Assembly (NCBI RefSeq): GCF_011082085.1
Contig: NZ_CP041063.1
Location: 2,232,001 to 2,296,000 of the forward strand
Source: Bacillus sp. Cs-700
GTDB taxonomy: Bacteria; Bacillota; Bacilli; Bacillales; Guptibacillaceae
DNA: 64,000 nt
Direction: 5' to 3'
Position numbers and translations under genes: made by a program. Positions 12,771 through 27,544 of this stretch are shown piece after piece (within the stretch, counting starts at the first letter, position 1; each line of letters opens with the position of its first letter). The notes beneath the pieces were generated by a model that saw only the letters and a program-made list of their open reading frames with translations, was not told the origin of the DNA and made no database searches.

Positions 12771-14129
12771 ATGTTACAAGAACAAGTCGCCACAACCAGC
12801 GAAAAACGGTATCAAAAAGAATTACCCGCTCTGCCTCTCACAACAATTTGGTTAATTAGTTTCGGTTTTTTAGGTGTTCAGATGGCCTTCTCATTGCAAA
12901 GTGCAAACATGGGACGAATTTTCCAAACACTTGGAGCCGATCCTCATAATCTCGGATTGTTCTTTATCTTACCACCACTCGCAGGACTAATCGTCCAACC
13001 GTTAGTTGGTTATTTCTCAGACAAGACCTGGATTCCAGGGCTTGGACGACGAATTCCTTATCTACTCGTCGGCGCTGTTGTTGCGGTCATTGTGATGTGT
13101 CTCTTGCCTAACTCTGGTAGTTTCGGATTTACGGCAGTGACAGCCATGACGTTTGGCGCGATTGCCATTCTGTTTATGGATGTCTCATCAAACATGGCGA
13201 TGCAGCCTTTTAAAATGATGGTTGGGGATATGGTAAACAAAGAACAAAAAGGATTTGCCTATTCGATCCAAAGTTTTCTATCAAATAGTGGTGCTGTATT
13301 GGCGAGTATTTTTCCTTTTGCATTAACACTTCTTGGTGTATCAAATAGTGCACCAAAAGGGGTTATCCCACAATCCGTCGTCATTTCTTTTTATGCCGGC
13401 GCAGGTGTTTTAATCATTTGTAGTCTCGTTACCGTATTGAAAGTTAAAGAGTATACACCAGATGAGTTTGCCGTTTATCACGGCATTACGAAAGAATCAA
13501 CGAAAGAAAAAGTAAACATTTTCAAATTACTTGGGAGCGCTCCAAAAGTATTTTGGACCGTTACCCTCGTTCAACTATTTTGCTGGATGGGTTTTCAATA
13601 CTTGTGGACGTATGGCACAGGAGCCATTGCATTAAACGTTTGGAACACGAGCGATCCTTCTAGTGCAGCTTATCAAGATGCCGGGAACTGGTTTGGAATT
13701 CTAACAGCGGTTCAGTCGATTGGCGCAGTACTCTGGTCTCTCGCCTTATCTCGAATTCCAAATAACTCACGCAAATTCTACTACTCGATTAGCTTATTGC
13801 TAGGGGGAATCGGATTTGGATCTGTCTTCTTCGTTCACAATCAGTGGGCACTCGTTATTTCCTTTACGTTAATCGGAATCGCTTGGGCAGCGATGATGAC
13901 TTTCCCATTTACAATCCTAACGAACGCGCTGAAAGGCAAAAACATGGGTACATACCTTGGGCTGTTTAACGGGAGTATTTGTTTGCCACAAATTATCGCG
14001 TCATGCTTAAGCTTTGTCCTGTTCCCTTTGATCGGCTCTTCTATGCCGTTTATGATCCTGCTTTCAGGTGTGTTCCTTGTGGTTGGGGCGTTGTCTGTAC
14101 CTGTTATTAAAGAGACGTATGCTAAGTAA
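12771..14129 (+). CDS. MFS/GPH-type sugar transporter (SLC45/MalY-like)
   Basis: A 452-residue membrane protein with about 12 hydrophobic helices. It has the N-terminal SANMGRIFQTLGADPH region and the loop motif GYFSDKTWIPGLGRRIPY, typical of the sucrose/maltose proton symporter family (SLC45, Caulobacter MalY). It probably imports a disaccharide such as maltose or sucrose together with protons; the exact sugar is inferred only. It stands alone with two LacI-type operators upstream and a terminator downstream. A decayed fragment of a paralogue lies at about 27789-27883. The start ATG is preceded by AGGAGGACATC. Confidence 0.8.
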   Translation: MLQEQVATTSEKRYQKELPALPLTTIWLISFGFLGVQMAFSLQSANMGRIFQTLGADPHNLGLFFILPPLAGLIVQPLVGYFSDKTWIPGLGRRIPYLLVGAVVAVIVMCLLPNSGSFGFTAVTAMTFGAIAILFMDVSSNMAMQPFKMMVGDMVNKEQKGFAYSIQSFLSNSGAVLASIFPFALTLLGVSNSAPKGVIPQSVVISFYAGAGVLIICSLVTVLKVKEYTPDEFAVYHGITKESTKEKVNIFKLLGSAPKVFWTVTLVQLFCWMGFQYLWTYGTGAIALNVWNTSDPSSAAYQDAGNWFGILTAVQSIGAVLWSLALSRIPNNSRKFYYSISLLLGGIGFGSVFFVHNQWALVISFTLIGIAWAAMMTFPFTILTNALKGKNMGTYLGLFNGSICLPQIIASCLSFVLFPLIGSSMPFMILLSGVFLVVGALSVPVIKETYAK

Positions 14130-14187
14130 GAGAACGGAACTTAGAACTAGCAAGACGAAGTAGTCAATTTTCATACTTAAACATAGA

Positions 14188-14217
14188 GACACACCAGAAC
14201 GCTTCTGGTGTGTCTTT
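14188..14217 (+). terminator. Terminator of the MFS gene
   Basis: A perfect 12-bp hairpin (GACACACCAGAA, three-base loop) is followed by TTTAAT. Confidence 0.75.
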
Positions 14218-14385
14218 AATTATGATTACAATACTTACAAGTTATTATTGTAATAAACGGAGCACTGCTGCCTAGTTTAGCGTGAACAACCCATTCTATA
14301 CATGAAGAACAATAAAAACTTAAACACTTTTCAAAATTATGGTACTTTAATCATATTACAGTTTTTATAGTAAGGAGGGAACGTT

Positions 14386-14718
14386 CTGTCTATTTATAGT
14401 CAAATGTTGAAAGGTCTACTAGAAGGAAGTATCCTTTCGTTAATTTCCAAAAAGGATACTTATGGATACGAATTGCTTGAAAAGCTAAGAGAAGGGGGAT
14501 TTCTTCATGTAAGCGACGGCACTATTTATCCATTACTTTTAAGATTAGAAAAAGAAAAACTAATAGAAAGCTATACTCGTCCTTTCGAAACAGGGCCAAG
14601 AAGAAAGTATTATTTCATTACCGAAGAAGGTTTACTAGCTTTAAAAGAAATACAGGATTATTGGAAAGACTTGAAGAAATCCGTGAATTTGTTCATGGAA
14701 AATGAAGAGGTGAAATGA
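14386..14718 (+). CDS. PadR-family transcriptional regulator, probable CTG start
   Basis: This is a winged-helix PadR regulator. Its motifs are TYGYEL, SDGTIYPLLLRLE and GPRRKYYFITEEG. The first in-frame ATG (14404) is 25 bases from AAGGAGGG, too far. An in-frame CTG at 14386 is seven bases from that site and gives the N terminus (M)SIYSQMLKGLLEG, a typical PadR beginning. I therefore call a non-canonical CTG start (110 residues). The stop overlaps the start of the next gene. PadR proteins often repress drug or antimicrobial-peptide efflux operons, which fits the ABC exporter genes that follow. Confidence 0.75.
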   Translation: MSIYSQMLKGLLEGSILSLISKKDTYGYELLEKLREGGFLHVSDGTIYPLLLRLEKEKLIESYTRPFETGPRRKYYFITEEGLLALKEIQDYWKDLKKSVNLFMENEEVK

Positions 14719-15224
14719 TGAATAGTATTCAAAGGGACAAATTTACATTATCAAAAAATAATCGAGATAAATATAACGAGTTTTGTTTATTTGTAAATAG
14801 TAGCAATATCAATACAGAAGACAAAAATAAATTAAAAGATGAAATTTTAGACCATCTCATTGAAGGCGAAAAACACGGCAAAACATTTGATGATTTATTT
14901 AGTGAAAATCCAAGAGAATACTCCCAACAACTAATCGAAATGCTACCTAAAGCAACTTTTAAAACAAAAGTGAGTTTCTTCTTAATCGTTATCTTTATAT
15001 CAATTATTATTAGTATACCTATCATGATTTTCAGCGATTCAACTTCGGAATTTTTATTTACTCTAGTATCCTTCCCATTATTGGCAGGGGTTTTGTCACT
15101 TTTTTGTTTCCGTATATTTAAAGGTACGGTTTTCAAGAATTCTTTTAACTATATAATTGCCATTATCTTAGTGATTCAATTAATATCGATCGTCTATGTT
15201 TATTTCAAAAATGCTATCATATAA
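14715..15224 (+). CDS. Small membrane protein paired with PadR
   Basis: The 169-residue product has a soluble N-terminal helical domain (about 1-85; NKLKDEILDHLIEGEKHGK resembles the HAAS domain found beside PadR regulators). Three to four membrane helices follow, from about residue 90 to the end. Such proteins commonly occur next to PadR genes and may act as partners or sensors; no enzymatic motif is visible. Its ATG overlaps the PadR stop codon, so the two are translationally coupled. Confidence 0.65.
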   Translation: MMNSIQRDKFTLSKNNRDKYNEFCLFVNSSNINTEDKNKLKDEILDHLIEGEKHGKTFDDLFSENPREYSQQLIEMLPKATFKTKVSFFLIVIFISIIISIPIMIFSDSTSEFLFTLVSFPLLAGVLSLFCFRIFKGTVFKNSFNYIIAIILVIQLISIVYVYFKNAII

Positions 15225-15304
15225 GAGTTTGCAAATATTTTACCCAGTTAATCACGAAACCCCTCCTCTTATGTAAATCCTATAGTAAATTCCATTCTTA
15301 TTTT

Positions 15305-15321
15305 TATATGATACTCATATA
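15305..15321 (+). promoter_or_regulatory. Palindrome, candidate PadR operator
   Basis: TATATGA TAC TCATATA has 7-bp arms around a three-base spacer, 31 bases before the exporter operon's first ATG. PadR operators are short AT-rich palindromes, and the PadR gene lies just upstream. Binding is inference. Confidence 0.45.
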
Positions 15322-15351
15322 AGGCTTGTATAACAAAGGTGGGATTTACAT

Positions 15352-16473
15352 ATGAAAAAGAAGATAATTTTAGGTAGTGTTACTGTCGGAATTCTCAGTT
15401 TGGTTCTAATTAACTTATTTATTTTTCAAGGTGATCAAGAGACAACTGTAAAAGCTGAAGAAGAAACATATATCGTAGAGGAAAAACGTTTAACCGATGT
15501 TATTAACGTCGGTGGTGAGGTAAAGCCAAAAAATCAGGAAACTTATTATATTGACTCATCTATAGGAACTTTAAAGGAGATATTAGTTGATGACGGTGAG
15601 GAAATCGAAATTGGAAGTCCTTTGTATTCTTATGAAAACCCTAAATTATTAGATCAGTTGGAACGAGCTAAGTTATCAAAAAGTCGTGCTCTTATTCAAT
15701 TAGAACAATTAAACAGTCAGGAAGATAAATTAAATGAAGAGTCTAATGATTATGAAGGGGAATTTACTCCCAACGCAATAGGTGTAGATGAAGAATCGAT
15801 CAAATTTGATCGAAGATTAGCAAATTTAGACTACAAAGAAGCAGAATTAGAAATTTCATCTTTACATAAAGAAATAAATGAACTGACTATCCATAGCGAA
15901 ATGAAAGGCATCGTCAAAATAGTTGGGAATGATCTCTCACTTGGGTCTCCAAATAGCACTGTCCCCCTTGTAACTGTTGTGTCTGAAGGAGAGTATTTGG
16001 TTTATGGTAAACTTCCCGAATATGATTCTCCATTAGTTACCCCTGGAATGAAAGTTAAAATTAAAGCAAAGGCAGTGCCTGATAAAGTCTATGAGGGTGA
16101 AATTGTAAGTGTTTCCTCCTTACCTGATAATTTATCAGAAGGGGAAGATTCTTCTGGTAATAAGGAGTCCATGTACACCTATAAAGCAAAATTTAAAACC
16201 TCTCCAAAAGAAATGAAATCTGGATACTCTGTAAATATCGAAGTTCAGATAGACCGAAAAGATAAACAACCTATTATCCCTATAGAAAGCATCGAAACAG
16301 ATGAAAAGGGAGAATATATCTTCTTGAAAAAAAGTGAAGAAAATATAGAAAAGACCTATATTGAAGCCGGCGTCATTAATGGAGGATACAGGGAAGTATT
16401 AAATGGACTTAAAGTTGGAGATGAAATTCTTGCTTCAGTTGAGTCTGATTTAGAAAGTGATAAGAGCAAATGA
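15352..16473 (+). CDS. ABC exporter membrane-fusion/adaptor subunit (MacA/YknX-like)
   Basis: A 373-residue HlyD/MacA-type adaptor. It has one N-terminal membrane anchor (about 5-26), a lipoyl/barrel-sandwich half near 60-90, a short coiled-coil hairpin (about 100-180), the second lipoyl half with MKGIVKIVGNDLSLG, and a beta-barrel domain. It should sit on the outer face of the membrane and work with the ATPase and permease that follow (stop and start overlap by four bases). The trio resembles B. subtilis YknXYZ, which protects against the SdpC toxin. It also matches the accessory ABC immunity sets (EFGH) of circular bacteriocin loci such as AS-48. The bacteriocin cluster begins 0.6 kb downstream on the other strand. 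Confidence 0.8.
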   Translation: MKKKIILGSVTVGILSLVLINLFIFQGDQETTVKAEEETYIVEEKRLTDVINVGGEVKPKNQETYYIDSSIGTLKEILVDDGEEIEIGSPLYSYENPKLLDQLERAKLSKSRALIQLEQLNSQEDKLNEESNDYEGEFTPNAIGVDEESIKFDRRLANLDYKEAELEISSLHKEINELTIHSEMKGIVKIVGNDLSLGSPNSTVPLVTVVSEGEYLVYGKLPEYDSPLVTPGMKVKIKAKAVPDKVYEGEIVSVSSLPDNLSEGEDSSGNKESMYTYKAKFKTSPKEMKSGYSVNIEVQIDRKDKQPIIPIESIETDEKGEYIFLKKSEENIEKTYIEAGVINGGYREVLNGLKVGDEILASVESDLESDKSK

Positions 16474-17165
16474 TTAAATTGGAGAGTGTAAATAAAACCT
16501 ATAAAGTCGGAAATGTGGACGTCCCCATTCTAAAAGACATAGATTTATCCATTGATAAAGGGGAATACGCTTCAATTATGGGGCCTTCTGGTTCCGGAAA
16601 GTCCACTTTAATGAATATTATCGGGATCTTAGATCGTCCAACTCGAGGTCACTATCTATTTAATGAAGAAAATATAAAAAACAAAAATCAAAAAACACTA
16701 GCTAGTTTGCGAAATCAATCAATTGGATTCGTGTTCCAAAGCTTTCATTTGCTACCTAGAATAACAGCAGTCGAAAATGTTGAGTTGCCATTAATCTATG
16801 GTGGTTATAAAAGCAGTGATAGAAGAGAAAAAGCAATTTATGCTCTAGAAAAAGTAGGGTTAGTTGATCATATGAAGCAATATCCTAATCAACTTTCAGG
16901 AGGGCAAAAACAAAGAGTTGCCATTGCTCGTGCAATTATTAATGAACCTTTATTAATATTGGCAGACGAGCCAACAGGTGCTTTAGATACAAAGACTGGC
17001 GAAAAAATAATGGAGATATTCACCCAATTTAATAAAGAAGGTCACACAGTTGTATTAATTACTCATGAATTAGAAATAGCTCACTGCGCAAACCGGATAA
17101 TAAATATTAGAGATGGGAAAATAGCAGAAGATCGGAGGCTATCTTACGATGAATTTTTGGGATAG
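16470..17165 (+). CDS. ABC exporter ATPase (MacB/YknY/LolD-like)
   Basis: A 231-residue ATP-binding subunit with Walker [11 protein letters not shown]-loop QSFHLLPRI, signature LSGGQKQR, Walker [13 protein letters not shown] and the switch His in LITHE. It belongs to the MacB/LolD branch that powers extraction or export of peptides and lipids rather than import. It overlaps the adaptor gene by four bases and the permease gene by 17, so all three are made together. Accessory immunity to the neighbouring bacteriocin is an inference from context. Confidence 0.85.
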
Positions 17166-18339
17166 TTTCAAGATCTCTCTAAATGCAATTGCTGGGCACA
17201 AGATGCGTTCTATACTAACTATGCTAGGGATTGTCATTGGCGTGAGTTCTATTATTATAATTGTATCTATCGGTCAGAGTGGTGAGAAAGCTTTAAAATC
17301 TAACTTAGCTGGATCAGACAACAACACGATTGATATGATGTTCACTTATGATGATGAAAATAAAAACTATAGTAACGAAGCTCTCACCTATAATACGCGT
17401 GACATAGAAAATCTCCAATCAATTCCTGAAATAGAAAAAGTAGTACCTAAGAATACGGAGTACACTACTATTTCTGGTTCCAAGCAGTCTAAAACTGTTG
17501 AAATGATTGGTATTACATCACAATACTACTTTTTAGAAAATTTAGAAGTTAATGAAGGCAGAGAGATATCTTCATTTGAAATGAGTAATTCTAGAAGAGT
17601 CGCTTTATTAAATGAAAAAACTGCAAAATCTTTATTTAATTTAACAAGCCCTGTTGATCAGTATATAGAGGTAAACGGAATATCTGTTAAAATAATTGGC
17701 GTTTATCAAGAAGACATTCCTGTAGAACTACAAACCGAAAAAGTATTAATACCGCTACAAGCCTGGCCACTTATATTTAATACAGAAGAAATCACCTCTT
17801 TAACGATCGTAGCGGACAAGGTTGAGAACATGCAAGTAGCTGGTGAAAAAGCAGTTTCAATGATGAACAACACTAAAGAAGTGAGTGAGGAAGGTACTTT
17901 TGAAGTACTCAACATGAAAGAAATCCAAGACGGTATTGCCTCCATTACTAAGATCATGACTGGAATTGTAGGCGCTATAGCTAGCATTTCACTATTTGTT
18001 GGTGGAATAGGTGTTATGAATATAATGCTAGTATCAGTTACTGAACGAACGAAAGAAATAGGGATTAGAAAGGCTTTAGGAGCCTCACGCGGAAAAATAC
18101 TTTTACAATTCTTAATTGAGTCCGCCTTTTTAACGTTCATTGGCGGTGTCATTGGAATTGTTATTGGTTACTGTGGCTCTTACCTATTTTCACTATTTTC
18201 TGATTGGCCCTTTACTGTTTCAATCCCAATCATAGCAATAGGTTGCCTATTTTCTATGGCAATAGGTGTAGTTTTTGGCATTATGCCCGCCAACAAAGCC
18301 GCAAAACTAGAACCTATTGATGCTTTAAGATATGAGTAA
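17149..18339 (+). CDS. ABC exporter permease (MacB/YknZ-like, FtsX fold)
   Basis: The 396-residue permease has one N-terminal membrane helix (about 18-40, MLGIVIGVSSIIII), a large extracytoplasmic MacB-type domain (about 45-270), and three C-terminal helices within the FtsX domain, including the coupling segment VTERTKEIGIRKALGA. It pairs with the preceding ATPase and adaptor. The ATG lies within the ATPase gene. A strong terminator follows at 18471-18506. Confidence 0.85.
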   Translation: MNFWDSFKISLNAIAGHKMRSILTMLGIVIGVSSIIIIVSIGQSGEKALKSNLAGSDNNTIDMMFTYDDENKNYSNEALTYNTRDIENLQSIPEIEKVVPKNTEYTTISGSKQSKTVEMIGITSQYYFLENLEVNEGREISSFEMSNSRRVALLNEKTAKSLFNLTSPVDQYIEVNGISVKIIGVYQEDIPVELQTEKVLIPLQAWPLIFNTEEITSLTIVADKVENMQVAGEKAVSMMNNTKEVSEEGTFEVLNMKEIQDGIASITKIMTGIVGAIASISLFVGGIGVMNIMLVSVTERTKEIGIRKALGASRGKILLQFLIESAFLTFIGGVIGIVIGYCGSYLFSLFSDWPFTVSIPIIAIGCLFSMAIGVVFGIMPANKAAKLEPIDALRYE

Positions 18340-18470
18340 GAACCTCATCTTTCACTCAAAAAATGACAACCGCCTGGCTACTAATTGATTTACTTGAGAA
18401 GTTCATAACGTAAAACCGCATAGCGATTTGCAGTGAACTTCACACGCTATATCACATATGAAATCACACA

Positions 18471-18506
18471 AAAAAGAGCTTGGAGATGCTATTTCAAGCT
18501 CTTTTT
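18471..18506 (+). terminator. Terminator of the PadR/ABC operon
   Basis: A perfect 12-bp hairpin AAAAAGAGCTTG with its complement runs into a T-tract. Confidence 0.8.
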
Positions 18507-18912
18507 CCTTCGTTTTTCTGTTAAGGCTCCTCGTTTCTTGAAAGTTGATTTCCAGACACTTTCCTTTGCTTATTTAAAAAGCATGGATATGCATTAATTT
18601 AATAGAAACCTCTTAAATTCTAAGATAGTAGATAACATACTATTGAAGACATATAATTTTCTCCGCAGCCCGTTTTCGCCGGACAAGATATTCATCGCTT
18701 TGTGCACGTTTAAATCACTCTGATGGTTCGTTCAATGATATATTTCTCGTGTCCTAATCCAGTCTGATACATTGTGGCAATCGTTTCGTCAATCCATTGT
18801 GAGAAAGGCAATGTGTCGATCATACAGTTACTCTAAACAATCGTATTTCGTATCTAGGGAGACTACGCACCATTTTGCTGCCTTATATTCTATAACATCT
18901 GCATTTCCAAAT
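18507..18912. other. Gene-free region with decayed coding traces
   Basis: About 400 bases. On the minus strand, around 18709-18823, a frame reads IDTLPFSQWIDETIATMYQT and continues GLGHEKYIIERTIRVI before a stop. It looks like a remnant of a coding region, which I could not identify. Nothing else was recognised. Confidence 0.3.
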
Positions 18913-18946
18913 AAAAAACAATCAATAAATTATTGATTGTTTTTTT
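18913..18946 (-). terminator. Terminator of the bacteriocin operon
   Basis: An inverted repeat (CAATCAATA arms extended by A/T runs) touches the stop codon of the SpoIIM/DUF95 gene. A long T-run follows on the minus strand. Confidence 0.75.
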
Positions 18947-19466
18947 ATATCGATTTTGGTGTAACAAATCCTTCTATAAACGAGGCTAAGAATAAGAGAA
19001 GAACAATCGATCCGACTATATAAGAAAGTCTTTTCCAACTCTTTTTTTCTGTATAAAACTTCAGTCCATATAACCCCAAATAGCCGGCTAAAATAAGTGC
19101 TGGTATTTCAAACAAACCATGAGGTATTACTGCTAGAAATAATTCAGTCACACCCATACCACTTAAGTAATTTCCAGCTAATACTCCTCCCAACCAAAGC
19201 CCATTAAGAAATAAAATAGGTACAGTAGGAATCCCGAATAGTAAAATACCGGAAACTAATAATAAAACCACCTTTAAATTCTGAATAAAGAAAAATAGAG
19301 AACCTTCAAATCCTTCTCTCTTATCATAATAATTTTCAGAGTTCATCCCTAGTACAGCTGTTTCAGTATTAACTGAGAGTATTAAAGTGATTCCAAGGAT
19401 CATACCTCCAGCAAAAAGAATAATCGAAAACAGTAATAATGATTTGTCTTTAAGTAATATATTCAT
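18945..19466 (-). CDS. SpoIIM/DUF95 membrane protein of the circular bacteriocin locus
   Basis: A 173-residue protein with about five membrane helices and the family signature PHGLFEIPA in the third quarter. DUF95 (stage II sporulation protein M-like) proteins are a standard component of circular bacteriocin loci (CirC/As-48C type), where they are needed for maturation, secretion or immunity. The frame extends three codons upstream, but AGGTGG five bases before this ATG fixes the start. It is the last gene of the operon, after the four bacteriocin genes and a hairpin. It is likely membrane-embedded and works with the ABC ATPase and the large membrane protein of the second operon. Confidence 0.85.
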   Translation of the reverse strand: MNILLKDKSLLLFSIILFAGGMILGITLILSVNTETAVLGMNSENYYDKREGFEGSLFFFIQNLKVVLLLVSGILLFGIPTVPILFLNGLWLGGVLAGNYLSGMGVTELFLAVIPHGLFEIPALILAGYLGLYGLKFYTEKKSWKRLSYIVGSIVLLLFLASFIEGFVTPKSI

Positions 19467-19541
19467 ATCAACCACCTAAAGGTTTGATTTTTTTTACGAT
19501 TAATGGTATATATAGTAAATATATGTATCAGCTATACTTAA

Positions 19542-19568
19542 AGAGCAACGAGGATGAGTCGTTACTCT
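19542..19568 (-). other. Intercistronic hairpin after bacteriocin copy 4
   Basis: AGAGCAACGA and TCGTTACTCT form a stem with one mismatch around a GGATGAG loop. It is the fourth-unit version of a hairpin repeated in the array and lies before the DUF95 gene. Confidence 0.6.
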
Positions 19569-19585
19569 AAAAGATGGATTAGATA

Positions 19586-19789
19586 TTAGTAAGCTACTGC
19601 CGTCTTTTTAGCTCCTTTTTTAAGCAATGATTGTGCTGTAAGGATAAGAGCTGACGTTAAACCAAAGCTTGCAAACAAGGAAATTAAAGCCAGTACTGTT
19701 GATCCTGCTTCGATCGCGGATACAATTACATTAGCCCAGTACTGGGAAATACCTAGTGCGCCGGCAATGAATGCAAAAATGAATTCCAT
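19586..19789 (-). CDS. Circular bacteriocin precursor, copy 4 (variant)
   Basis: A 67-residue hydrophobic peptide differing from the other three copies at two positions (Glu16 to Gln, Arg53 to Gln). It therefore carries a different net charge. The start IAGALGIS and the end AVAY resemble circularin A (VAGALGV...RAIAY). By analogy the leader would be the first seven residues, and Ile8 would be joined to Tyr67 to give a 60-residue ring of amphipathic helices that permeabilises target membranes. It has its own AGGAGGAAGAAAAC site. It is the last of four tandem units and the most diverged at nucleotide level. Confidence 0.85.
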   Translation of the reverse strand: MEFIFAFIAGALGISQYWANVIVSAIEAGSTVLALISLFASFGLTSALILTAQSLLKKGAKKTAVAY

Positions 19790-19816
19790 GTTTTCTTCCT
19801 CCTTTCTTGGGGAAAT

Positions 19817-19848
19817 GTTCTTGTAACGAGATGAGTCGTTACAAGAAC
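19817..19848 (-). other. Intercistronic hairpin after bacteriocin copy 3
   Basis: Perfect 13-bp arms (GTTCTTGTAACGA and complement) enclose a six-base loop. It sits between the stop of copy 3 and the ribosome binding site of copy 4. No U-run follows, so it is more likely an mRNA stabiliser or attenuator than a full terminator. Confidence 0.65.
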
Positions 19849-19869
19849 AATTAATTAATTAATTAAGTA

Positions 19870-20073
19870 TTAGTAAGCTACTGCTGTCTTTTTAGCTCCT
19901 TTTTTAAGCAATGATCTTGCTGTAAGGATAAGAGCTGACGTTAAACCAAAGCTTGCGAACAGGGAAATTAGTGCCAGTACCGTTGATCCTGCTTCGATCG
20001 CGGATACGATGACGTTAGCCCAGTACTCGGAGATACCTAGTGCGCCAGCAATAAATGCAAAAATGAATTCCAT
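19870..20073 (-). CDS. Circular bacteriocin precursor, copy 3
   Basis: A 67-residue precursor identical in protein sequence to copies 1 and 2, although the DNA carries silent differences. The predicted leader is MEFIFAF and the mature ring is Ile8-Tyr67. The features fit the circularin/uberolysin family: a short leader, mostly hydrophobic helices, and a Lys-rich patch (LLKKGAKK) near the C terminus. The ribosome binding site is AAGGAGGAAGAAAAC. The unit length to the next copy is about 284 bases. Confidence 0.85.
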   Translation of the reverse strand: MEFIFAFIAGALGISEYWANVIVSAIEAGSTVLALISLFASFGLTSALILTARSLLKKGAKKTAVAY

Positions 20074-20104
20074 GTTTTCTTCCTCCTTACTTGGGGAATT
20101 GTAT

Positions 20105-20129
20105 TTATAACGAGGATGAGTCGTTATAA
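20105..20129 (-). other. Intercistronic hairpin after bacteriocin copy 2
   Basis: TTATAACGA and TCGTTATAA form a perfect 9-bp stem with a GGATGAG loop, between copies 2 and 3. The stem sequence differs from the other hairpins but pairing is kept, which suggests the structure matters. Confidence 0.6.
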
Positions 20130-20147
20130 GAACGAACTACTTAAGTA

Positions 20148-20351
20148 TTAGTAAGCTACAGCCGTCTTCTTAGCTCCTTTTTTAAGCAATGATCTTGCTG
20201 TAAGGATAAGAGCTGACGTTAAACCAAAGCTTGCAAATAGGGAAATTAGTGCCAGTACCGTTGATCCTGCTTCGATCGCGGATACGATGACGTTAGCCCA
20301 GTACTCGGAGATACCTAGTGCGCCAGCAATGAATGCAAAAATGAATTCCAT
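20148..20351 (-). CDS. Circular bacteriocin precursor, copy 2
   Basis: The 67-residue product is identical to copies 1 and 3. The same assignment applies: a seven-residue leader and a 60-residue circular product ending in Tyr. It has its own GGAGGAAGAAAAC site. Its nucleotide sequence is nearest to copies 1 and 3, pointing to recent tandem duplication. The spacer to copy 1 has lost one arm of the usual hairpin. Confidence 0.85.
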   Translation of the reverse strand: MEFIFAFIAGALGISEYWANVIVSAIEAGSTVLALISLFASFGLTSALILTARSLLKKGAKKTAVAY

Positions 20352-20427
20352 GTTTTCTTCCTCCCTTCTTTATTTTCTATTACAGGGTTGAGTGATCACA
20401 TTAATAAAATCATGTTTGTAACGAGCA

Positions 20428-20631
20428 TTAGTAAGCTACAGCCGTTTTCTTAGCTCCTTTTTTAAGCAATGATCTTGCTGTAAGGATAAGAGCTGACGTT
20501 AAACCAAAGCTTGCGAACAGGGAGATTAGTGCCAGTACCGTTGATCCTGCTTCGATCGCGGATACGATGACGTTAGCCCAGTACTCAGAGATACCTAGTG
20601 CGCCAGCAATGAATGCAAAAATGAATTCCAT
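20428..20631 (-). CDS. Circular bacteriocin precursor, copy 1
   Basis: First of the four structural genes, 67 residues, with the same protein as copies 2 and 3. The frame can be extended three codons to a GTG, but that would overlap the ribosome binding site. The ATG eight bases after GGAGG matches the start of the other copies. It lies 43 bases after the YIP1-family gene, so the promoter of that gene probably drives the whole array. Four tandem copies should raise precursor dosage, and copy 4 adds a variant. Confidence 0.87.
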   Translation of the reverse strand: MEFIFAFIAGALGISEYWANVIVSAIEAGSTVLALISLFASFGLTSALILTARSLLKKGAKKTAVAY

Positions 20632-20674
20632 CTTTTTCACCTCCTCTCAATGGCAGTATATTTATATTGCTTGC

Positions 20675-21367
20675 TTATCCCAATAACGCTGGAATAAGTG
20701 AAGCAATGATAGTGAAACCAATCCAAGTTAGTGCAATAACACTTATACTTTTTTTGGTGGACACTTGGACACATACCCCTACTCCTAAACCAATTAGCAA
20801 AATACTCCAGATATTAAAAACTTCAATACTATTAAATAAATTTGTTAAAAAGATCGAATCAACAAAATTCTGAACGGTAAACCCTAAACTTGTTATTGGA
20901 GTCGTGACTGTACCCTGATCAATGAAAAGGAGATTAATGAATTTCCCAATGAGTATAGGTACTTGAGCAATTAATACGATATGGAACAGACCCTTAAAAG
21001 TTAATCGTATCTTACATAAGTGAAGTATTAATTTGTAAAGTGCTGTTGTTATTAATAAACTAAACAACAATTGAATGACAGAGAAAATACTCGTTCCAAT
21101 ATACAAAATTAAATATGTACTTTCATTTTGCAATTCTGGAGATAACAATGATATAACTTCGTTAGATTTCACTAAGTCTTTTGCTAAGAAGAAGGATATG
21201 ATTCCATATAACACCAAGATGATGTAGGCATTCATCCCTATTTTACGATCTATCCTCAGACTAGAAAAAAAATTAGTAGGTTGAATGAATACATCTAAAA
21301 GACTAGAAGGCTTGTAGGAAGCCTTTCTTCTTTCAGGAGCTTCTGCTACTTTTTGTGCAACACTCAT
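20675..21367 (-). CDS. YIP1-family membrane protein, first gene of the bacteriocin operon
   Basis: A 230-residue protein with a short cytoplasmic N terminus and about five hydrophobic helices (from residue 47 onward), resembling the Yip1 domain family of integral membrane proteins. Members near bacteriocin genes are suspected to take part in immunity or maturation; no catalytic motif is visible. It has a strong AAGGAGGATTAAAAA site and lies immediately upstream of the four structural genes. It should therefore be expressed with them, which supports a protective or processing role (inference). An upstream terminator (21506-21541) separates it from the other operon. Confidence 0.7.
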   Translation of the reverse strand: MSVAQKVAEAPERRKASYKPSSLLDVFIQPTNFFSSLRIDRKIGMNAYIILVLYGIISFFLAKDLVKSNEVISLLSPELQNESTYLILYIGTSIFSVIQLLFSLLITTALYKLILHLCKIRLTFKGLFHIVLIAQVPILIGKFINLLFIDQGTVTTPITSLGFTVQNFVDSIFLTNLFNSIEVFNIWSILLIGLGVGVCVQVSTKKSISVIALTWIGFTIIASLIPALLG

Positions 21368-21505
21368 TTTTTAATCCTCCTTGTGTATTTCGAATATGAG
21401 TTCATAATACTATAAAAAAGGGATATTTAAACATTAATTACCTATTGTGACTATTTTTGCTCTTTTTGGGGGTAATAATTGAACTATCTTATAAATAAAA
21501 TCAAT

Positions 21506-21541
21506 AAAAAAGAGCAGCACTTCAGGATAAAGTGCTGCTCT
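21506..21541 (-). terminator. Terminator of the bacteriocin maturation/transport operon
   Basis: A perfect 12-bp stem (AGAGCAGCACTT) with a seven-base loop and T-run on the minus strand follows the 58-residue ORF. It separates the two bacteriocin operons. Confidence 0.85.
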
Positions 21542-21566
21542 CTTTACGATAATTTCACTGGATCAT

Positions 21567-21743
21567 TTATTTTTTGTTGGCGTTTTTAATATATCCGAAA
21601 GTTGTAATAGATAAAATCCCGATCAAAATAATTCCAATAATGAACGAATCTGTCAAATTCCCCTGGTACATTGAAAAAACGAGTGGGGGGATTGCAAAGA
21701 GAAAAAATATAACAGAAGATGTAATAAAAAGTTTTTTACTCAT
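21567..21743 (-). CDS. Small two-helix cationic membrane protein, probable bacteriocin immunity protein
   Basis: A 58-residue ORF beginning MSKKLFITSSVIFFLFAIPP and ending KNANKK. It has two hydrophobic helices (about 5-25 and 33-52) and basic ends. Circular bacteriocin immunity proteins (CirE, As-48D1) are of just this kind: about 50-60 residues, hydrophobic and cationic, and encoded right after the ABC ATPase. Its ATG directly follows the TAA of the ATPase gene, so translation is coupled. A terminator follows. Immunity is inferred from size, charge, topology and position; there is no motif to prove it. Confidence 0.75.
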   Translation of the reverse strand: MSKKLFITSSVIFFLFAIPPLVFSMYQGNLTDSFIIGIILIGILSITTFGYIKNANKK

Positions 21744-22457
21744 TTAGTTTACTCCTTCACTCAAAGTTCTTATAAAATAATCTTCAAGACTATTATCTTT
21801 ATTTGTAACAGCTGCAACGTCAATATTGGATTGTAAAACTTCACCATTATTGATGAATATCAAGCTTTCGCAGAAATTTTGAGCAACCTCCAGTTGGTGA
21901 GTAGACAATACTATGGAATTACCTTCATTAACATAATTCCTTAATATTGTTTTTGTTTTCTTCATATTAATAGGATCAATACCTGAAATAAATTCATCTA
22001 ATAATAGTAACTTAGGGTTATTTAACAATGTAGTTAATAACGTTAGTTTTTTCTTGTTGCCTAATGATAAATTCTTTATTTTTTTCCCAACTTCGTTTTG
22101 CAAATCAAAATAAGTCACTTTTTCTCCGATAATGGCTTTATTAACTCGAATTTTAAATAGTTCTGCCGTAAAACGAATGTATTCTTCCCCTGTTAACTCA
22201 TCATACAGAAAAGGATAATCAGGAATAAACATAACATCTTTTTTGGACTTATCGATCGGTTTCCCCAGAAATTGAACTTCCCCTGAATCAATATCCATTA
22301 GACCTGATGCAATTTTTAAAGAAGTCGTTTTTCCAGCACCGTTTTGTCCTAAGAACGCTATAATTTTGCCGGTTGGAATGTTGAAGTTCATATCTTTCAA
22401 TATTTTTTTATTCCCAATTGTTTTTGAAACTTGATTAAAGGATAATAACGGTTCCAT
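21744..22457 (-). CDS. ABC transporter ATPase of the circular bacteriocin locus
   Basis: A 237-residue ATP-binding protein with Walker A LGQNGAGKTTS, signature-like NLSLGNKKKLTLL (a divergent signature), Walker B LLLLDEFISGID and a switch His in STHQLE. It belongs to the drug/bacteriocin export branch (CirD/As-48D type), which powers secretion or immunity of circular bacteriocins. It follows the 593-residue membrane protein by 12 bases and is coupled to the 58-residue ORF. The start is an ATG after AAGGAGGTTGATTT. Confidence 0.85.
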   Translation of the reverse strand: MEPLLSFNQVSKTIGNKKILKDMNFNIPTGKIIAFLGQNGAGKTTSLKIASGLMDIDSGEVQFLGKPIDKSKKDVMFIPDYPFLYDELTGEEYIRFTAELFKIRVNKAIIGEKVTYFDLQNEVGKKIKNLSLGNKKKLTLLTTLLNNPKLLLLDEFISGIDPINMKKTKTILRNYVNEGNSIVLSTHQLEVAQNFCESLIFINNGEVLQSNIDVAAVTNKDNSLEDYFIRTLSEGVN

Positions 22458-22469
22458 AAATCAACCTCC

Positions 22470-24251
22470 TTACAAAGATAGTTGCTCAATTTTTGATAGT
22501 TTTCTCAACTTATTCCGTGCAAATAACATAAAGAATATTAGTGAAAAGAATAAAAGGATAGCTTCTCCCCATTGAATTGCCAATAAAGTGGAAAGATTTA
22601 TATAGTCTGTTAAGTAAAATGCTGTAGGAATCATACAAGCTGGAATAAATACCCCAACGATTAAATATCTAACAATTCCCTGTATTGAATTTTGATCAGG
22701 ATAGTCTTCCAATTGTTCAATATTAATGTAGTTAAAATGTGGACTAATAATTGATGGCAAAAATAACAAAGCTGATAAGAACAAGAAGGAGAAACAGTGA
22801 ATAACGACAATGACTGCAGCTTCTACTAACTTTATTCTGGAGAATAGGATCAGTGTTATATCTGCCACTATTAATAAAGGATAGGTATAGATAATAAATA
22901 ATAAATATTTATATTTGAATACTTCCCATACCGTTTTTCCAGCTAATAAATGAATAATGACGTTTTTACCTTCACTATCGACTGAAAAAAATCCTGTTAG
23001 TTCACTATAGATTGAAGCAATATGAAAATAGACAAAAAAGAATAAATAAAAAGATAAAATAAAATAATAGATTTTCTCTCCAGGATTCAAACCGGTCATA
23101 AAACTCACCATTAACCCGAGTTGAAACCAAAAAAGAAACGACCCAGTTAATACAGGGAACCGATATAAGAAATAATCTCCTCTTAACAGATGCTTTACCT
23201 GCATTCGAGTATAATTTGACTTCCCAAAAATTTTAGATGGAATTAGTTTTTCAATGATCGTAAAGGGATAAAAATTCTCTGATCGGTTTTTGGATTTTAA
23301 TTGCGTAATAGTAAACATGAAAGCAAATAAAACAATACAACCTGAAAGCAACATGACCCCATCGAAAATGCGAACTTCATCAAATAATAATGATGCCAAA
23401 AAATTATGAGGGAAAATTGGGTATTTAAAAATGACCGTTAACGGAGTGAGCAAATCTTTGACCACTTCGGCTCCTTGGCTAAGCCAGTCGTTATACTTCG
23501 CTACATCAACATCATTCGACGTAAGTGGAAAAGATTTAATCCAGGGAGTTAGTATTTTTCCTCCAAAAAAAGCTAGCGCCACTATCACCATTCTTATCAA
23601 TAGATTAAAGAACAAACGGAAGTAAAAATGAAGTCTGGTTCTTTGAGAACTCAAGTAATGATAATGCAGAACTGAAGTGACTAAACCAATACTAATAAAT
23701 AAAAACAGAGTTAAAATGACGATACCCACTACTCCGAACATGTTCATATCTGTTAACAATGAAAGTGCTATAATAATCGGCACATAACTGAAAACGTAAT
23801 CTTTAACATCCCACACAATAGCCTCTAAGTATAAAAATAGTCTAGCAGTTTGAGACTTTACTTTCGCATGAATCTCCAACCATTCGTGATCCATCGAATG
23901 TAATTGCCACTTAGAAGAACTAATTCCTGAAAGTACGGAAAATAGGAAAATTATAAAAAACAACAATGACCACAAGACTTCAATATGTGTGTTTAAGTAA
24001 GAAATTGCCTGGCTTAAAGTAGTTAAAAGTATACTATTTGAAGAAGTATTATCAAGAAAGTATTGATTGAATACAGTTGCCTTTAATAAGAAATAGGTTC
24101 CAAATAATATCATGAAAAAGTTAACTATACTTAGTAAAAGTGCTGCTATCCAAAACCATTTTCCACCTGGTATTTTTTTGAAAAAGGTTATATAGTTCCA
24201 TTGCACTTTCCATCTGATCATTAGTTTCCATTTAATCCATGAAATGACCAT
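22470..24251 (-). CDS. Large multi-helix membrane protein (CirB/As-48B-like maturation/secretion protein)
   Basis: The 593-residue product has roughly a dozen hydrophobic helices in two halves split by a loop near residues 220-290. No ATPase or protease motif is seen. Circular bacteriocin loci contain one such large membrane protein of about 550-600 residues (CirB, As-48B), required for production and thought to act in cyclisation or export. I assign it on size, topology and company, not on a motif. It is the first gene of the minus-strand operon (membrane protein, ATPase, small immunity protein), divergent from the agrC-like gene, and shares the intergenic region that holds a LytTR-type direct repeat. 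Confidence 0.75.
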   Translation of the reverse strand: MVISWIKWKLMIRWKVQWNYITFFKKIPGGKWFWIAALLLSIVNFFMILFGTYFLLKATVFNQYFLDNTSSNSILLTTLSQAISYLNTHIEVLWSLLFFIIFLFSVLSGISSSKWQLHSMDHEWLEIHAKVKSQTARLFLYLEAIVWDVKDYVFSYVPIIIALSLLTDMNMFGVVGIVILTLFLFISIGLVTSVLHYHYLSSQRTRLHFYFRLFFNLLIRMVIVALAFFGGKILTPWIKSFPLTSNDVDVAKYNDWLSQGAEVVKDLLTPLTVIFKYPIFPHNFLASLLFDEVRIFDGVMLLSGCIVLFAFMFTITQLKSKNRSENFYPFTIIEKLIPSKIFGKSNYTRMQVKHLLRGDYFLYRFPVLTGSFLFWFQLGLMVSFMTGLNPGEKIYYFILSFYLFFFVYFHIASIYSELTGFFSVDSEGKNVIIHLLAGKTVWEVFKYKYLLFIIYTYPLLIVADITLILFSRIKLVEAAVIVVIHCFSFLFLSALLFLPSIISPHFNYINIEQLEDYPDQNSIQGIVRYLIVGVFIPACMIPTAFYLTDYINLSTLLAIQWGEAILLFFSLIFFMLFARNKLRKLSKIEQLSL

Positions 24252-24360
24252 TTCACACCGCCCTCTATCTTGTAATGCAATATATACGAGTATACAAGTT
24301 GATTAAACCTTACTCTATGTAAACTTAAATCAAAGAACCCTTTATATCTAGGGCCTAGAA

Positions 24361-24390
24361 GTATTAAGGCCATTTTCATGTAAATTAAGG
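24361..24390 (+). promoter_or_regulatory. LytTR/AgrA-type direct repeat in the divergent promoter region
   Basis: GTATTAAGG (24361-24369) and AAATTAAGG (24382-24390) share ATTAAGG at exactly 21 bp, two helical turns, the layout bound by AgrA-like LytTR regulators (S. aureus consensus ACAGTTAAG, repeated with a 12-13 bp gap). It lies between the maturation operon (minus) and agrC (plus). Binding is inferred. Confidence 0.5.
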
Positions 24391-24506
24391 AGTTTTTACG
24401 TCATAAATGGAGAAAACAAAAAAGCGATTACAAGCTACTGTTGGATAATTTTTGAATACATGTTATCTTTGTATCATAAAATAGGTAGGAAAATAGGAGT
24501 ACGGAT

Positions 24507-25826
24507 ATGGATTATTTTTTCAAGATTTTTGGGATTTTTATGGAGTTTTTCGCTATTTTATTTTTCTGTACAGCTTTCTTAAGTATTGATATAAAAAAAC
24601 TATATAGAAATGAATTTCTGGCTATATGGTTTGTGGGAAGTATAGGGGTTTTTTTATTCCAAACTTTTATCACAGTACCTCCATACATAAATTTCAGTGT
24701 ATCTTTGGGTATTTTGCTTTTACTTATTTCAATCCTTATGAAAGTTAGATTGTTAATATCTCTCGCTATAGTCGTTCTTAGTTCGTGTCTATTTATCTTC
24801 TTCGAGTTTGTGTCACTTTCTATTCTCGATAATTTTTTTGACGTCTATTTAATTTTAGAGCAAACTTCCCTAGCCCGTGTTTTAATCTCTTTGCCACATA
24901 TATGTGCACTTGTGTTAATTTCCATCCTTTTTTATGTGTTCAGAATATCGTTTATTCCATGGAAGATCATTCACTCTGAAAAACTAGAAAAGCATAATAA
25001 AAAACACTTTCATAAATATATTACTTTCTTGTTCATTAATTTAGCTTTCATCATTATTATGGTTTTCACAGTTTCATATAGTGAATTTTATTTAGGAATT
25101 GAAAGCAAAGGAGCATTTTTCGTCATCATTTTGTGCACTACGTATCTACTGTTTTTTTCTCAGCAACTATTAAAAGAAGAAACAAAACGCTTAGAGCAAC
25201 ATCTCGACGAACAATATCAAGAGGATGTCACCAAATACTTCCGCCTTATAAAATCTCAACGACACGATTTTGTACACCATTTAAACACTCTCTATGGCCT
25301 TATACTTCAGGACAATACACAAGCAACTAGAGAATACATTTCCGAATTAATTGAGGATGTCAGAATCACAAATGAATCACTCCCTTTATCTCATCCTGCG
25401 ATGTCAGCTTTATTGTTAACGTTAAAACAAAAAGCATCTATGAGGGGAATTGATATGGCCATTATTATTAACTCCCCCTTCGAATCGCTGCCTTGCCGCG
25501 TTTCAGAAATAAGCAGGGTTATTGGAAATCTAATTGATAATGCTATTGAGGAACTTACTCCACTTCCTCAAGAAGAAAAATGGATTGAAGTCATACTAGA
25601 TTCAGATGGAACGGATTACACCATCTTAATATCGAATTGCGGAGAAATTGAAGAAAGTATCTCTCAAAGTATTTTTGATTATAATTTTACGACAAAAAAG
25701 GGAGATCACCAGGGACTAGGCTTACCTGAAACAAAAAGGATTGTAGAAAGCTATAACGGTTTAATCTATCTTGAAATAGATGAGGGATATACTAGTTTTA
25801 TTGTGTCTCTCCCAATAGCAAGTTAA
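24507..25826 (+). CDS. agrC: AgrC-like (HPK10 family) sensor histidine kinase
   Basis: A 439-residue kinase with six or seven N-terminal membrane helices (about 1-210), a short helix with the phospho-acceptor His253 in QRHDFVHHLNTL, and an atypical HATPase domain with N-box GNLIDNAIEEL and the late motif GLGLPETKRIVESYNG. This is the HPK10 pattern of peptide-pheromone receptors (AgrC, FsrC). It should bind the peptide made by the downstream AgrB/AgrD pair and phosphorylate the LytTR regulator 19 bases further on. It starts at an ATG after ATAGGAGTACGG. The symbol is by family; its peptide specificity is unknown. Confidence 0.85.
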   Translation: MDYFFKIFGIFMEFFAILFFCTAFLSIDIKKLYRNEFLAIWFVGSIGVFLFQTFITVPPYINFSVSLGILLLLISILMKVRLLISLAIVVLSSCLFIFFEFVSLSILDNFFDVYLILEQTSLARVLISLPHICALVLISILFYVFRISFIPWKIIHSEKLEKHNKKHFHKYITFLFINLAFIIIMVFTVSYSEFYLGIESKGAFFVIILCTTYLLFFSQQLLKEETKRLEQHLDEQYQEDVTKYFRLIKSQRHDFVHHLNTLYGLILQDNTQATREYISELIEDVRITNESLPLSHPAMSALLLTLKQKASMRGIDMAIIINSPFESLPCRVSEISRVIGNLIDNAIEELTPLPQEEKWIEVILDSDGTDYTILISNCGEIEESISQSIFDYNFTTKKGDHQGLGLPETKRIVESYNGLIYLEIDEGYTSFIVSLPIAS

Positions 25827-25845
25827 TGATGAAGGAGGAAGTGAA

Positions 25846-26595
25846 TTGAATAAGTTTAATGTATTGATCGTAGATGATGAACCCAATTGTAATTACATAC
25901 TTAAAAGTCACTTAAACAACTACCCTGATATAGAAAACATTTATGAATTTACAGATAGCAGAGCTGCTTTTAGCTACTTAGAAGAAAATCCAGTTGATTT
26001 AGTCTTTTTAGACATTGACATGCCTAATATGAACGGGCTCACGTTAACCAAAGAGTTAAAAAACAGACATCCTGAGATTTCAGTGGTTTTTGTTACTGGG
26101 CATACAGATTATGCTTTATATGGATATGAGCTGTATCCGTTAGACTTCTTAATAAAGCCTATTAATCCTTTACGCTTAGAGCAATGCTTAACACATTTCA
26201 GAAAAATGCACACTAATCCAAAAGTAAGTGGTTCTGTAGAAAGAAATACATCTGGAAAAAAAATCAGCGTTCGAAGTTCAGGTTCTATTTGCTTTATCAA
26301 TGTTAAGGATATAAATTTTATTGAAAAAAGAATTCGAAAATGTGTCATCAATACGGCGGATAATAAAGAAATTGAATGCAATCACACCTTGAGTGAACTT
26401 GAAAAAATGCTTGGAAGACATGGTTTTATTCGCCCTCATCAATCGTTTTTGATACCTTTAGATAAAATTAGTGAAATAAAACCTGATGAATTTATGAAAT
26501 CCTATGTAATTGAAATTGAAAACGTTAAAGACGAAATTAGAGTAAGTAAAAATCGTTATAAAGAATTGAAGGAAATCATTTTAGAGAGGCTATAA
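25846..26595 (+). CDS. agrA: AgrA-like LytTR response regulator
   Basis: The 249-residue product has a receiver domain with acidic pocket D10/D11, phospho-acceptor Asp56 in LVFLDIDMPNMNG and Lys in IKPIN. A C-terminal LytTR DNA-binding domain (about 140-245) contains FIRPHQSFLIPL. It starts at TTG, set by AAGGAGGAAGTGAA. LytTR regulators bind 9-bp direct repeats spaced about 21 bp; two such candidates flank this locus. It is co-transcribed with the kinase gene and probably activates agrBD and the divergent bacteriocin operon. Confidence 0.87.
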   Translation: MNKFNVLIVDDEPNCNYILKSHLNNYPDIENIYEFTDSRAAFSYLEENPVDLVFLDIDMPNMNGLTLTKELKNRHPEISVVFVTGHTDYALYGYELYPLDFLIKPINPLRLEQCLTHFRKMHTNPKVSGSVERNTSGKKISVRSSGSICFINVKDINFIEKRIRKCVINTADNKEIECNHTLSELEKMLGRHGFIRPHQSFLIPLDKISEIKPDEFMKSYVIEIENVKDEIRVSKNRYKELKEIILERL

Positions 26596-26643
26596 TTATA
26601 ATCTTAAATAATAAACTTCAATTTCCTAAATAGGTCAAAATTA

Positions 26644-26673
26644 TGTATAAGTGATCCGTATCGTTGTCTAAGT
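26644..26673 (+). promoter_or_regulatory. LytTR/AgrA-type direct repeat upstream of agrB
   Basis: TGTATAAGT (26644-26652) and TGTCTAAGT (26665-26673) match at eight of nine bases and start 21 bp apart. The repeat lies 92 bases before the agrB start, upstream of an AT-rich -10-like region (ACTATATAC). This is the expected architecture for autoinduction by the LytTR regulator. Confidence 0.6.
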
Positions 26674-26764
26674 ATGTCATATTTTAACTTTTCATACCCA
26701 TTTAAATACAAAATAGACGAAAGATTTATGCTACTATATACCTGAGATTAAACAGGAGGTTGGT

Positions 26765-27391
26765 ATGAGTGCTTTTAGTCCTAAATTAATCGCCACCAAA
26801 TTTTCAGAAAGAGCAATTCTGTTTGGTAATATTGATCCACGTGAGAAAGATCGAATTCGCTATGGTTTGGAATGGGGCATATCTGGCTTTTATCAAATTG
26901 CTCTTACTTTACTGATAGGATATTCGGTTGGATTATTTATGGAAACTCTCTTAGTATTAACTACAATCTCATCTTTAAGACTTTTTGCAGGTGGAGCTCA
27001 TTTTTCTAACTTTAACTATTGTTTAATAGCTAGTGTAAGCTTGATTATTGGAATTGCATTCTCAGGTCCTTTTCTACTTCATATTTTTTCTAATGTAAAC
27101 ACGCTCTTACTTTTTACATATCCAATTTTGCTGGCTTTTCTTTGGAACTATGCTCCAGTTCTATTTAAAAAACGTAATAAAAAATCCAATCGTGAAATTC
27201 AACAAGCGAAACACATCTCAATCACCATATCAATTGCTTTGATGTCGCTAAGTTTTTGCTTACCCGATATATACGCTTTAGCGATATATACCGCTTTATT
27301 TTTCCAAGTATTTACCATTACCCCTTTTGGCATCAAAATAATTCATTTTATCGATTCTAAATTAACGAAAAGGAGATCGAATCATGTTTAA
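26765..27391 (+). CDS. agrB: AgrB-like pheromone-processing membrane protease
   Basis: A 208-residue membrane protein of the AgrB accessory regulator family with five or six helices. The catalytic pair of this cysteine endopeptidase family is present: His79 and Cys86 in the segment FAGGAHFSNFNYC, with the same seven-residue spacing as His77/Cys84 in S. aureus AgrB. It would cut the C-terminal tail off the AgrD-like peptide and form the thiolactone ring at the inner membrane face. The 3' end overlaps the small peptide gene by eight bases, the usual agrBD arrangement. The start ATG follows AGGAGGTTGGT. Confidence 0.88.
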   Translation: MSAFSPKLIATKFSERAILFGNIDPREKDRIRYGLEWGISGFYQIALTLLIGYSVGLFMETLLVLTTISSLRLFAGGAHFSNFNYCLIASVSLIIGIAFSGPFLLHIFSNVNTLLLFTYPILLAFLWNYAPVLFKKRNKKSNREIQQAKHISITISIALMSLSFCLPDIYALAIYTALFFQVFTITPFGIKIIHFIDSKLTKRRSNHV

Positions 27392-27509
27392 AATCAAAAG
27401 TAGCTTTTATGCTTCAGTAGCCACACTAGGACTAGTTCTAGCAAACATTACTGTAGGAACAACTTGCTTTTTGGGGTTATACGAACCTGACCTTCCAGAT
27501 GAAGATTAA
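27384..27509 (+). CDS. agrD: AgrD-like cyclic autoinducer peptide precursor
   Basis: This 41-residue ORF begins within the end of agrB, after AAGGAGATCGAATC. It has an amphipathic, basic N-terminal helix (MFKIKSSFYASVATLGL), a core with Cys28 (TTCFLGL) and an acidic, proline-containing tail YEPDLPDED. This matches the cyclic lactone autoinducer family; Listeria AgrD has CFMFV followed by YEP. I predict a signal with a Cys28-Phe-Leu-Gly-Leu32 thiolactone ring, with an unknown number of N-terminal tail residues. Cleavage before Tyr33 would be by the AgrB-like protein. A hairpin follows 35 bases downstream. Confidence 0.85.
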   Translation: MFKIKSSFYASVATLGLVLANITVGTTCFLGLYEPDLPDED

Positions 27510-27544
27510 CCTAATTGCCTGTTTTATAACGTTAAATACTATAT

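Follow-up and report, generated by a model that had tools for sequence, protein, structure and literature searches.

Why should a bacterium keep four adjacent genes for what is nearly one and the same circular bacteriocin? Circularin A, carnocyclin A, and enterocin NKR-5-3B are each encoded by a single structural gene. An earlier note, made from the sequence of a 64,000-nucleotide stretch of DNA from Bacillus sp. Cs-700 (hereafter the window), drew attention to four tandem genes at positions 19586-20631 and explained the array by selection for dosage together with purifying selection on the protein. The questions raised by the locus are whether the array is real, what it encodes, and why the copies have been kept.

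The Tandem Array

The four genes, in order of transcription, are as follows.

20428..20631, minus strand, structural gene copy W1, first in the transcript; 67-residue precursor with a predicted leader, MEFIFAF, whose length is set by homology to flexusin A, and a 60-residue core
20148..20351, minus strand, structural gene copy W2; protein identical to that of W1
19870..20073, minus strand, structural gene copy W3; protein identical to that of W1
19586..19789, minus strand, structural gene copy W4; variant with the substitutions E16Q and R53Q

Each is a complete open reading frame of 67 codons, as the earlier note had described. Its further observations hold as well: the repeat interval is about 280 bases (280, 278, and 284 bp from start to start), every ATG is preceded by its own strong AGGAGG-type ribosome binding site, and W1, W2, and W3 specify the same precursor despite silent changes in the DNA. 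The listed reading frame of W1 can be read three codons longer from a GTG; the ATG at 20631 is the one that follows the ribosome binding site. The 60-codon cores of W1-W3 differ pairwise at 5, 6, and 5 nucleotides, all of them silent, and the coding dS among these copies is 0.11-0.13. The core of W4 is separated from the other three by a dN of 0.019 and a dS of 0.285-0.416, the amino acid changes being the two listed above.

Repeats can be misassembled, and an inflated copy number might in principle account for the array. The copies can be told apart, however, by their silent changes and distinct spacers, and they occur in the same order in G009, an independent complete genome of the same genus in which the last copy also carries the W4-type residues. 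An artefact is thus improbable in the extreme. The four distinguishable copies, the tandem repeat (TRF) score of 1588, and the second genome rule out both chance and misassembly as sources of the array. Within the single-contig genome of 4,297,839 bases, these four genes are the only matches to the precursor. The array is real and functional-looking.

The Precursor and its Predicted Ring

A search with the W1 precursor, of the kind the earlier note had proposed, gave matches over the cut-offs to TIGR03651 (37.8 bits; cut-off 30.7) and PF09221 (29.8 bits; cut-off 23.6); the corresponding scores for W4, likewise over both cut-offs, are 38.3 and 30.7 bits. The context of the circularin A/uberolysin family, namely a SpoIIM/DUF95 gene and an ABC transporter, is present in the cluster. 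In addition, 57 of the 60 core residues are identical to those of the chemically characterised flexusin A from Bacillus flexus R29-2, as given in the available portion of PMC11943950. Family models, neighbourhood, and core identity all support the reading of these genes as circular bacteriocin structural genes.

The predicted ring, Ile 8 to Tyr 67, contains 60 residues and agrees with that of flexusin A. The earlier note had predicted the same ring and remarked that it is shorter than circularin A; such a size is not unusual, since the ring of carnocyclin A also has 60 residues. The calculated average masses are 6094.2 Da for the W1-W3 ring and 6065.1 Da for the W4 ring, versus 6112.2 and 6083.1 Da for the corresponding linear forms. 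The window precursor shares its superfamily with circularin A, carnocyclin A, and enterocin NKR-5-3B. Among solved structures, a profile of the precursor finds by sequence NKR-5-3B (2mp8; E = 2.6e-06); carnocyclin A (2kjf; E = 0.02) is matched only weakly. The fold expected of the circularin A/uberolysin family is a saposin-like bundle of four to five helices. A single-sequence model of the peptide (mean pLDDT 71.3, pTM 0.45) displays three helices, with residues 31-63 forming one of them, and a Foldseek search of the PDB with this model returned no circular bacteriocin, the best E-value being 2.6 and none reaching 0.001 or below.

Comparison with Flexusin A and Other Circular Bacteriocin Loci

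According to the available portion of PMC11943950, flexusin A is a 60-residue ring by mass spectrometry (6098.43 Da versus 6098.29 Da calculated), its inactive linear form was detected as well, and its chromosomal locus contains three duplicate copies of the gene with a similar gene upstream. Circularin A is less than 50% similar to it (PMC11943950). The likeness to the window, on the basis of that text, extends to both the 60-residue ring and the three identical copies with a similar fourth gene. The window core differs from flexusin A at S17, L31, and R46, and the leader is MEFIFAF in the window versus MEVVAY in flexusin A.

A further genome, G095, encodes the exact flexusin A precursor three times, after a first gene whose product is 55% identical to that of the window. 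Because of this arrangement, G095 was assigned as P. flexa-like; it is probably Priestia flexa or a very near relative. The odd copy is the last and nearly identical in the window but the first and about half identical in G095. Two of the three window spacers carry a hairpin, whereas those of G095 have none. A fourth locus of this type lies on a P. megaterium plasmid (NZ_CP059459.1). It has four structural genes, the same gene order from the 593-residue membrane protein to SpoIIM, and, as in the window, agr genes, a PadR regulator, and the adaptor/ATPase/FtsX genes. It differs in its location on a 57-kb plasmid, in its divergent first copy, and in the arrangement of its agr and exporter blocks.

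The claim in the earlier note that known circular bacteriocin loci have a single structural gene cannot be retained. In the portions available, PMC7132975 describes clusters of the Bacillus cereus group with two to three copies, circularin- or uberolysin-like, and proposes the co-expression of peptide variants; groups 1, 2, and 5 of PMC8659200 are circular clusters with two to three structural genes; and PMC11943950 adds the three-plus-one case. PMC7829367, likewise seen in part, cites PMC7132975 for multiple structural genes. Nothing on multiple structural genes was found in the available portions of PMC8534725 and PMC5695211, or, with respect to circular bacteriocins, in that of PMC10931772. 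The clusters of PMC7132975 and PMC8659200, as far as those portions go, resemble the window in having several structural genes but contain two to three copies rather than four. Multi-gene circular clusters, and a three-plus-one array of the flexusin peptide type, are thus already in print, and the window array is a further flexusin A-type circular bacteriocin locus, of a kind already described.

Genes Surrounding the Array

The genes on either side of the array are listed below; identities refer to the P. flexa-like and P. megaterium loci, together termed the Priestia loci.

14404..14718, plus strand, PadR regulator (PF03551); 63-65% identical
14715..15224, plus strand, DUF1129 membrane protein (PF06570)
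15352..18339, plus strand, HlyD-type adaptor, MacB-type ATPase, and FtsX permease (PF16576, PF00005, PF12704, PF02687); probable immunity exporter
18945..19475, minus strand, SpoIIM/DUF95 membrane protein downstream of the array, the usual partner of circular bacteriocins in circularisation/immunity (PF01944, 97.3 bits); 54-56% identical
20675..21367, minus strand, YIP1/YknW-like membrane protein (PF04893, 38.6 bits; NF052650, 84.8 bits, below the equivalog cut-off of 110); 46-49% identical
21567..21743, minus strand, 58-residue hydrophobic protein, candidate immunity protein by position and composition only; 48-50% identical over partial cover
21744..22457, minus strand, ABC transporter ATPase for export/immunity (PF00005, 83.7 bits); 57-59% identical
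22470..24251, minus strand, 593-residue polytopic membrane protein, candidate permease/maturation protein; 42-45% identical

The genes for the YIP1, 58-residue, ATPase, and 593-residue proteins lie upstream of the array, and the MacAB-type exporter, PadR, and DUF1129 genes are positioned on its other side. The 593-residue protein matches no Pfam or NCBIfam family at E-values up to 0.1. The adaptor/ATPase/FtsX block resembles YknXYZ and As-48FGH. All three of its components are present on the P. megaterium plasmid; a 20-kb stretch of the P. flexa-like locus yielded neither the adaptor nor the FtsX permease.

Hairpins and Transcription Units

Four hairpins, all on the minus strand, may bear on the expression of the cluster.

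20105..20129, minus strand, hairpin 3' of W2, AACGA...TCGTT core, 9-bp stem
19816..19849, minus strand, hairpin 3' of W3, AACGA...TCGTT core, 14-bp stem
19542..19568, minus strand, hairpin 3' of W4, between the array and the SpoIIM gene, 10-bp stem
21507..21545, minus strand, terminator-like hairpin from a consensus scan, 18 pairs with a T-rich tail

The last of these divides the operon for the 58-residue, ATPase, and 593-residue proteins from a unit formed by YIP1, the array, and SpoIIM. The consensus scan placed minus-strand promoter-like sites before W1 (20683-20655) and YIP1 (21431-21404) and none inside the array; the scan is weak, with 27 sites versus a mean of 41.4 in shuffled sequences, that is, fewer than after shuffling.

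A stem with the AACGA/TCGTT core follows W2, W3, and W4 as well as the last copies of the P. flexa-like (F4) and P. megaterium (M4) loci. These five sequences, two of which (F4 and M4) are closely related, were anchored by hand at AACGA/TCGTT, and the stem pairs were counted in this manner because MAFFT misplaced the hairpin loops. Pairs 1-5 are invariant. Compensatory changes mark pairs 6-10, each of which includes a change on both sides, and only one of their 25 cells is unpaired (pair 10 of W2). In all five cases the folding energy lies below that of every one of 500 mononucleotide shuffles. After W1 only a remnant of the hairpin is left, such that the first spacer has no full hairpin. The element thus recurs with the gene in the window lineage and occurs only after the last copy in Priestia.

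A stable hairpin within 80 nucleotides 3' of the structural gene was also observed in 18 of 27 other loci, with zero or one of 60 mononucleotide shuffles as stable; this survey, drawn from L020-L077, sets aside the flexusin locus, one locus below the cut-off, and those with short flanks, and it includes some close relatives. A stable 3' hairpin may be a general expression element of the circular bacteriocin family. AS-48 transcripts are known to be processed near the structural gene. No literature match was found for a circular bacteriocin with a stem-loop at its structural gene, and Rfam gave no match in the window. Elsewhere in the window, at 39140-39183 and 54252-54295, lie two terminator-like hairpins that resemble each other and have near-identical arms; they are also similar to a stretch of L086.

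The agr Genes

Divergent from the 593-residue protein gene is a set of quorum-sensing genes.

24507..25826, plus strand, AgrC-like sensor kinase, GHKL type (PF14501, 48.3 bits); 41-42% identical in the Priestia loci
25846..26595, plus strand, AgrA-like response regulator, LytTR type (PF00072, PF04397); 57-58% identical in the Priestia loci
26765..27391, plus strand, AgrB-like processing protein (PF04647, 98.5 bits)
27384..27509, plus strand, AgrD-like cyclic signal precursor (TIGR04223, 26.4 bits; cut-off 19), with a predicted ring CFLGL before YEP, the cleavage site being inferred

All four flexusin-type loci contain genes for AgrB and AgrD together with those for a GHKL kinase and a LytTR regulator. 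The AgrD motif CFLGLYEP is common to the window, G009, and both Priestia loci (L048 14589; L019 18571), and its presence in different genera suggests a shared signal. When eight other circular loci, each spanning 13-14 kb and drawn from the 20 remaining genomes of the order over the TIGR03651 cut-off, were searched by tblastn, neither these four proteins nor the 593-residue protein had a match in any; the sensitivity is low, as the window SpoIIM matched two of the eight and the precursor four. The agr genes may well control the bacteriocin cluster. The argument for control of the array rests on linkage, because no LytTR binding repeats were found: the divergent promoter region contains no AgrA/LytTR-type repeat, and the two loose LytTR boxes among 3,097 bases of selected regions lie elsewhere and, compared with 79 in 64 kb on both strands, amount to background.

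Evolution of the Copies

The purifying selection proposed in the earlier note is borne out by the comparison of the window genes with F2-F4 and M2-M4, for which the core dN is 0.04-0.07 at a dS that is at least 1.56 or not computable. Set aside in this comparison were F1 and M1, divergent paralogues with a dN of about 0.4. These first copies (L048 11166-11366; L019 11753-11953) encode a separate circular peptide that starts from a GTG and shares about half of its residues with that of the window, and they form a lineage of their own that is conserved between the two loci (dN 0.10, dS 1.5).

Copies 2-4 cluster by lineage. Position-by-position orthology of these copies across lineages was rejected by an AU test that omitted W1, S1, F1, and M1 (4.5e-59; log-likelihood lower by 223). 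A free tree and a lineage-clade tree have practically equal likelihoods; the AU value of 5.5e-06 assigned to the free tree, a numerical artefact, was disregarded. Support in the 16-copy tree is weak (49-82) at many nodes. Spacers measure 74-80 nucleotides in the window, 32-39 in the P. flexa-like locus, and 41-46 in P. megaterium. From the clustering, the rejected orthology, and the differing spacers, it follows that each lineage amplified or homogenised its array on its own; either gene conversion or fresh duplication would account for this.

Within the genus the array is older. Each window spacer differs from its counterpart in G009 by a single mismatch, with a 4-base gap besides in the third, whereas the spacers within the window differ from one another by 9-17 mismatches, plus gaps. 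The array therefore predates the split of the two congeners, and four copies have been kept since.

Tandem repeats arise readily, and the coding dS among W1-W3 is small, so that the copies might be redundant products of neutral duplication with no selected function. This reading is improbable, however: two genomes that are 88.7-96.3% identical across the locus and its flanks have both retained the array, every one of the 16 copies in the four loci has an open frame, and arrays are found again in other lineages.

A stronger alternative holds that the copies exist for diversification, as raw material for peptides with other targets, the identity of W1-W3 being incidental. The two substitutions of W4 are kept in both congeners, the first Priestia copies are a distinct peptide of separate descent, and the proposal of variant co-expression in the available part of PMC7132975 points the same way. 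Yet in the window, G009, and the P. flexa-like genome, three of the four copies specify one and the same protein, as do two of four in P. megaterium, and, despite the age of the congener array, W1-W3 and S1-S3 specify one protein sequence with silent changes only. On balance diversification appears rather unlikely as the main reason. Dosage is most likely what the copies are for, with variant production secondary; since the products of W4 and of the divergent Priestia first copies are different peptides, dosage is not the sole reading.

Distribution and Insertion Site

When the order was scanned with TIGR03651, 23 of 397 genomes gave a match over the cut-off; in the class the count was 18 of 398, and, with seven genomes on both lists, the total is 34 different genomes. 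Tandem matches were seen in four of these (four genes in G000, G009, and G095, and two, 476 bp apart, in G134), a lower bound because some contigs are short. The array is present in two of 14 genomes of the window genus and one of ten in the genus of G095. A plasmid search matched one record, that from P. megaterium, and scans of genome contigs revealed no relative. All four flexusin-type loci found, namely those of the window, G009, the P. megaterium plasmid, and the G095 chromosome, have four structural genes.

In the window the cluster is an insert, ∼14131-27978, flanked by genes for an MFS protein and a DnaQ-like exonuclease. Three of the 14 genus members (G005, G011, G013) have 205-233 bp in its place, with blastn breaks at 14129/14130 and 27979. 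Five more hold other sequence at the site, 8-12 kb in G007, G004, G010, and G002 and about 27 kb in G008, in which tblastn detected none of the cluster proteins save for a weak ABC ATPase similarity in G008; in G001, G003, G006, and G012 one or both flank matches are missing at the thresholds used. The cluster is thus variable cargo at the MFS/exonuclease site, and it is plasmid-borne in P. megaterium. The sequence at this site in G007 contains polysaccharide-type genes. Near the right end of the insert, a 57-bp piece (27769-27825) matches a segment of the MFS gene (13793-13849) at 86% identity (E = 1.7e-13) and is perhaps a trace of how the insert arrived. Farther on, at 31833-33587 on the minus strand, an exosporium glycoprotein-like gene encodes a collagen-like start of GPP repeats and a BclA C-terminal domain (42.2 bits).

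Discussion

Taken as a whole, the cluster very probably produces a head-to-tail circular bacteriocin of the flexusin A type from four tandem genes, with predicted induction by agr, a putative role for the hairpins, and copies that probably serve dosage. A density signal made by the AgrB and AgrD of the cluster would be sensed by the AgrC/AgrA-like pair and would turn the cluster on. The YIP1/array/SpoIIM unit would be transcribed from upstream of YIP1 or of W1, and each copy would be translated from its own strong ribosome binding site. The hairpins 3' of W2-W4 may stabilise the structural part of the transcript or limit read-through, such that the precursor would far outnumber the machinery. 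By homology, the seven-residue leader would be removed and Ile 8 joined to Tyr 67, a ring chemistry demonstrated for flexusin A only, and the 60-residue ring would be exported with the help of SpoIIM, the 593-residue membrane protein, and the ABC proteins. The three identical copies and the one near-identical copy would serve dosage, with W4 adding a minor ring variant.

The present analysis extends a purified type of bacteriocin to another genus and shows a multi-copy design that is conserved and has recurred, and so is not a quirk of one strain. The SpoIIM gene, the candidate immunity and export genes, and the agr system are parts beyond those in the available portion of PMC11943950. The signal peptide predicted from AgrD is a candidate inducer of production. 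More tentatively, and with somewhat less than even confidence, flexusin-type clusters may reflect repeated selection for about four genes in separate lineages, which would have amplified the gene or would still be homogenising it, in one of them with its 3' hairpin, under a dedicated agr circuit. Such clusters would then be a natural gene-dosage amplifier whose copies can carry variants.
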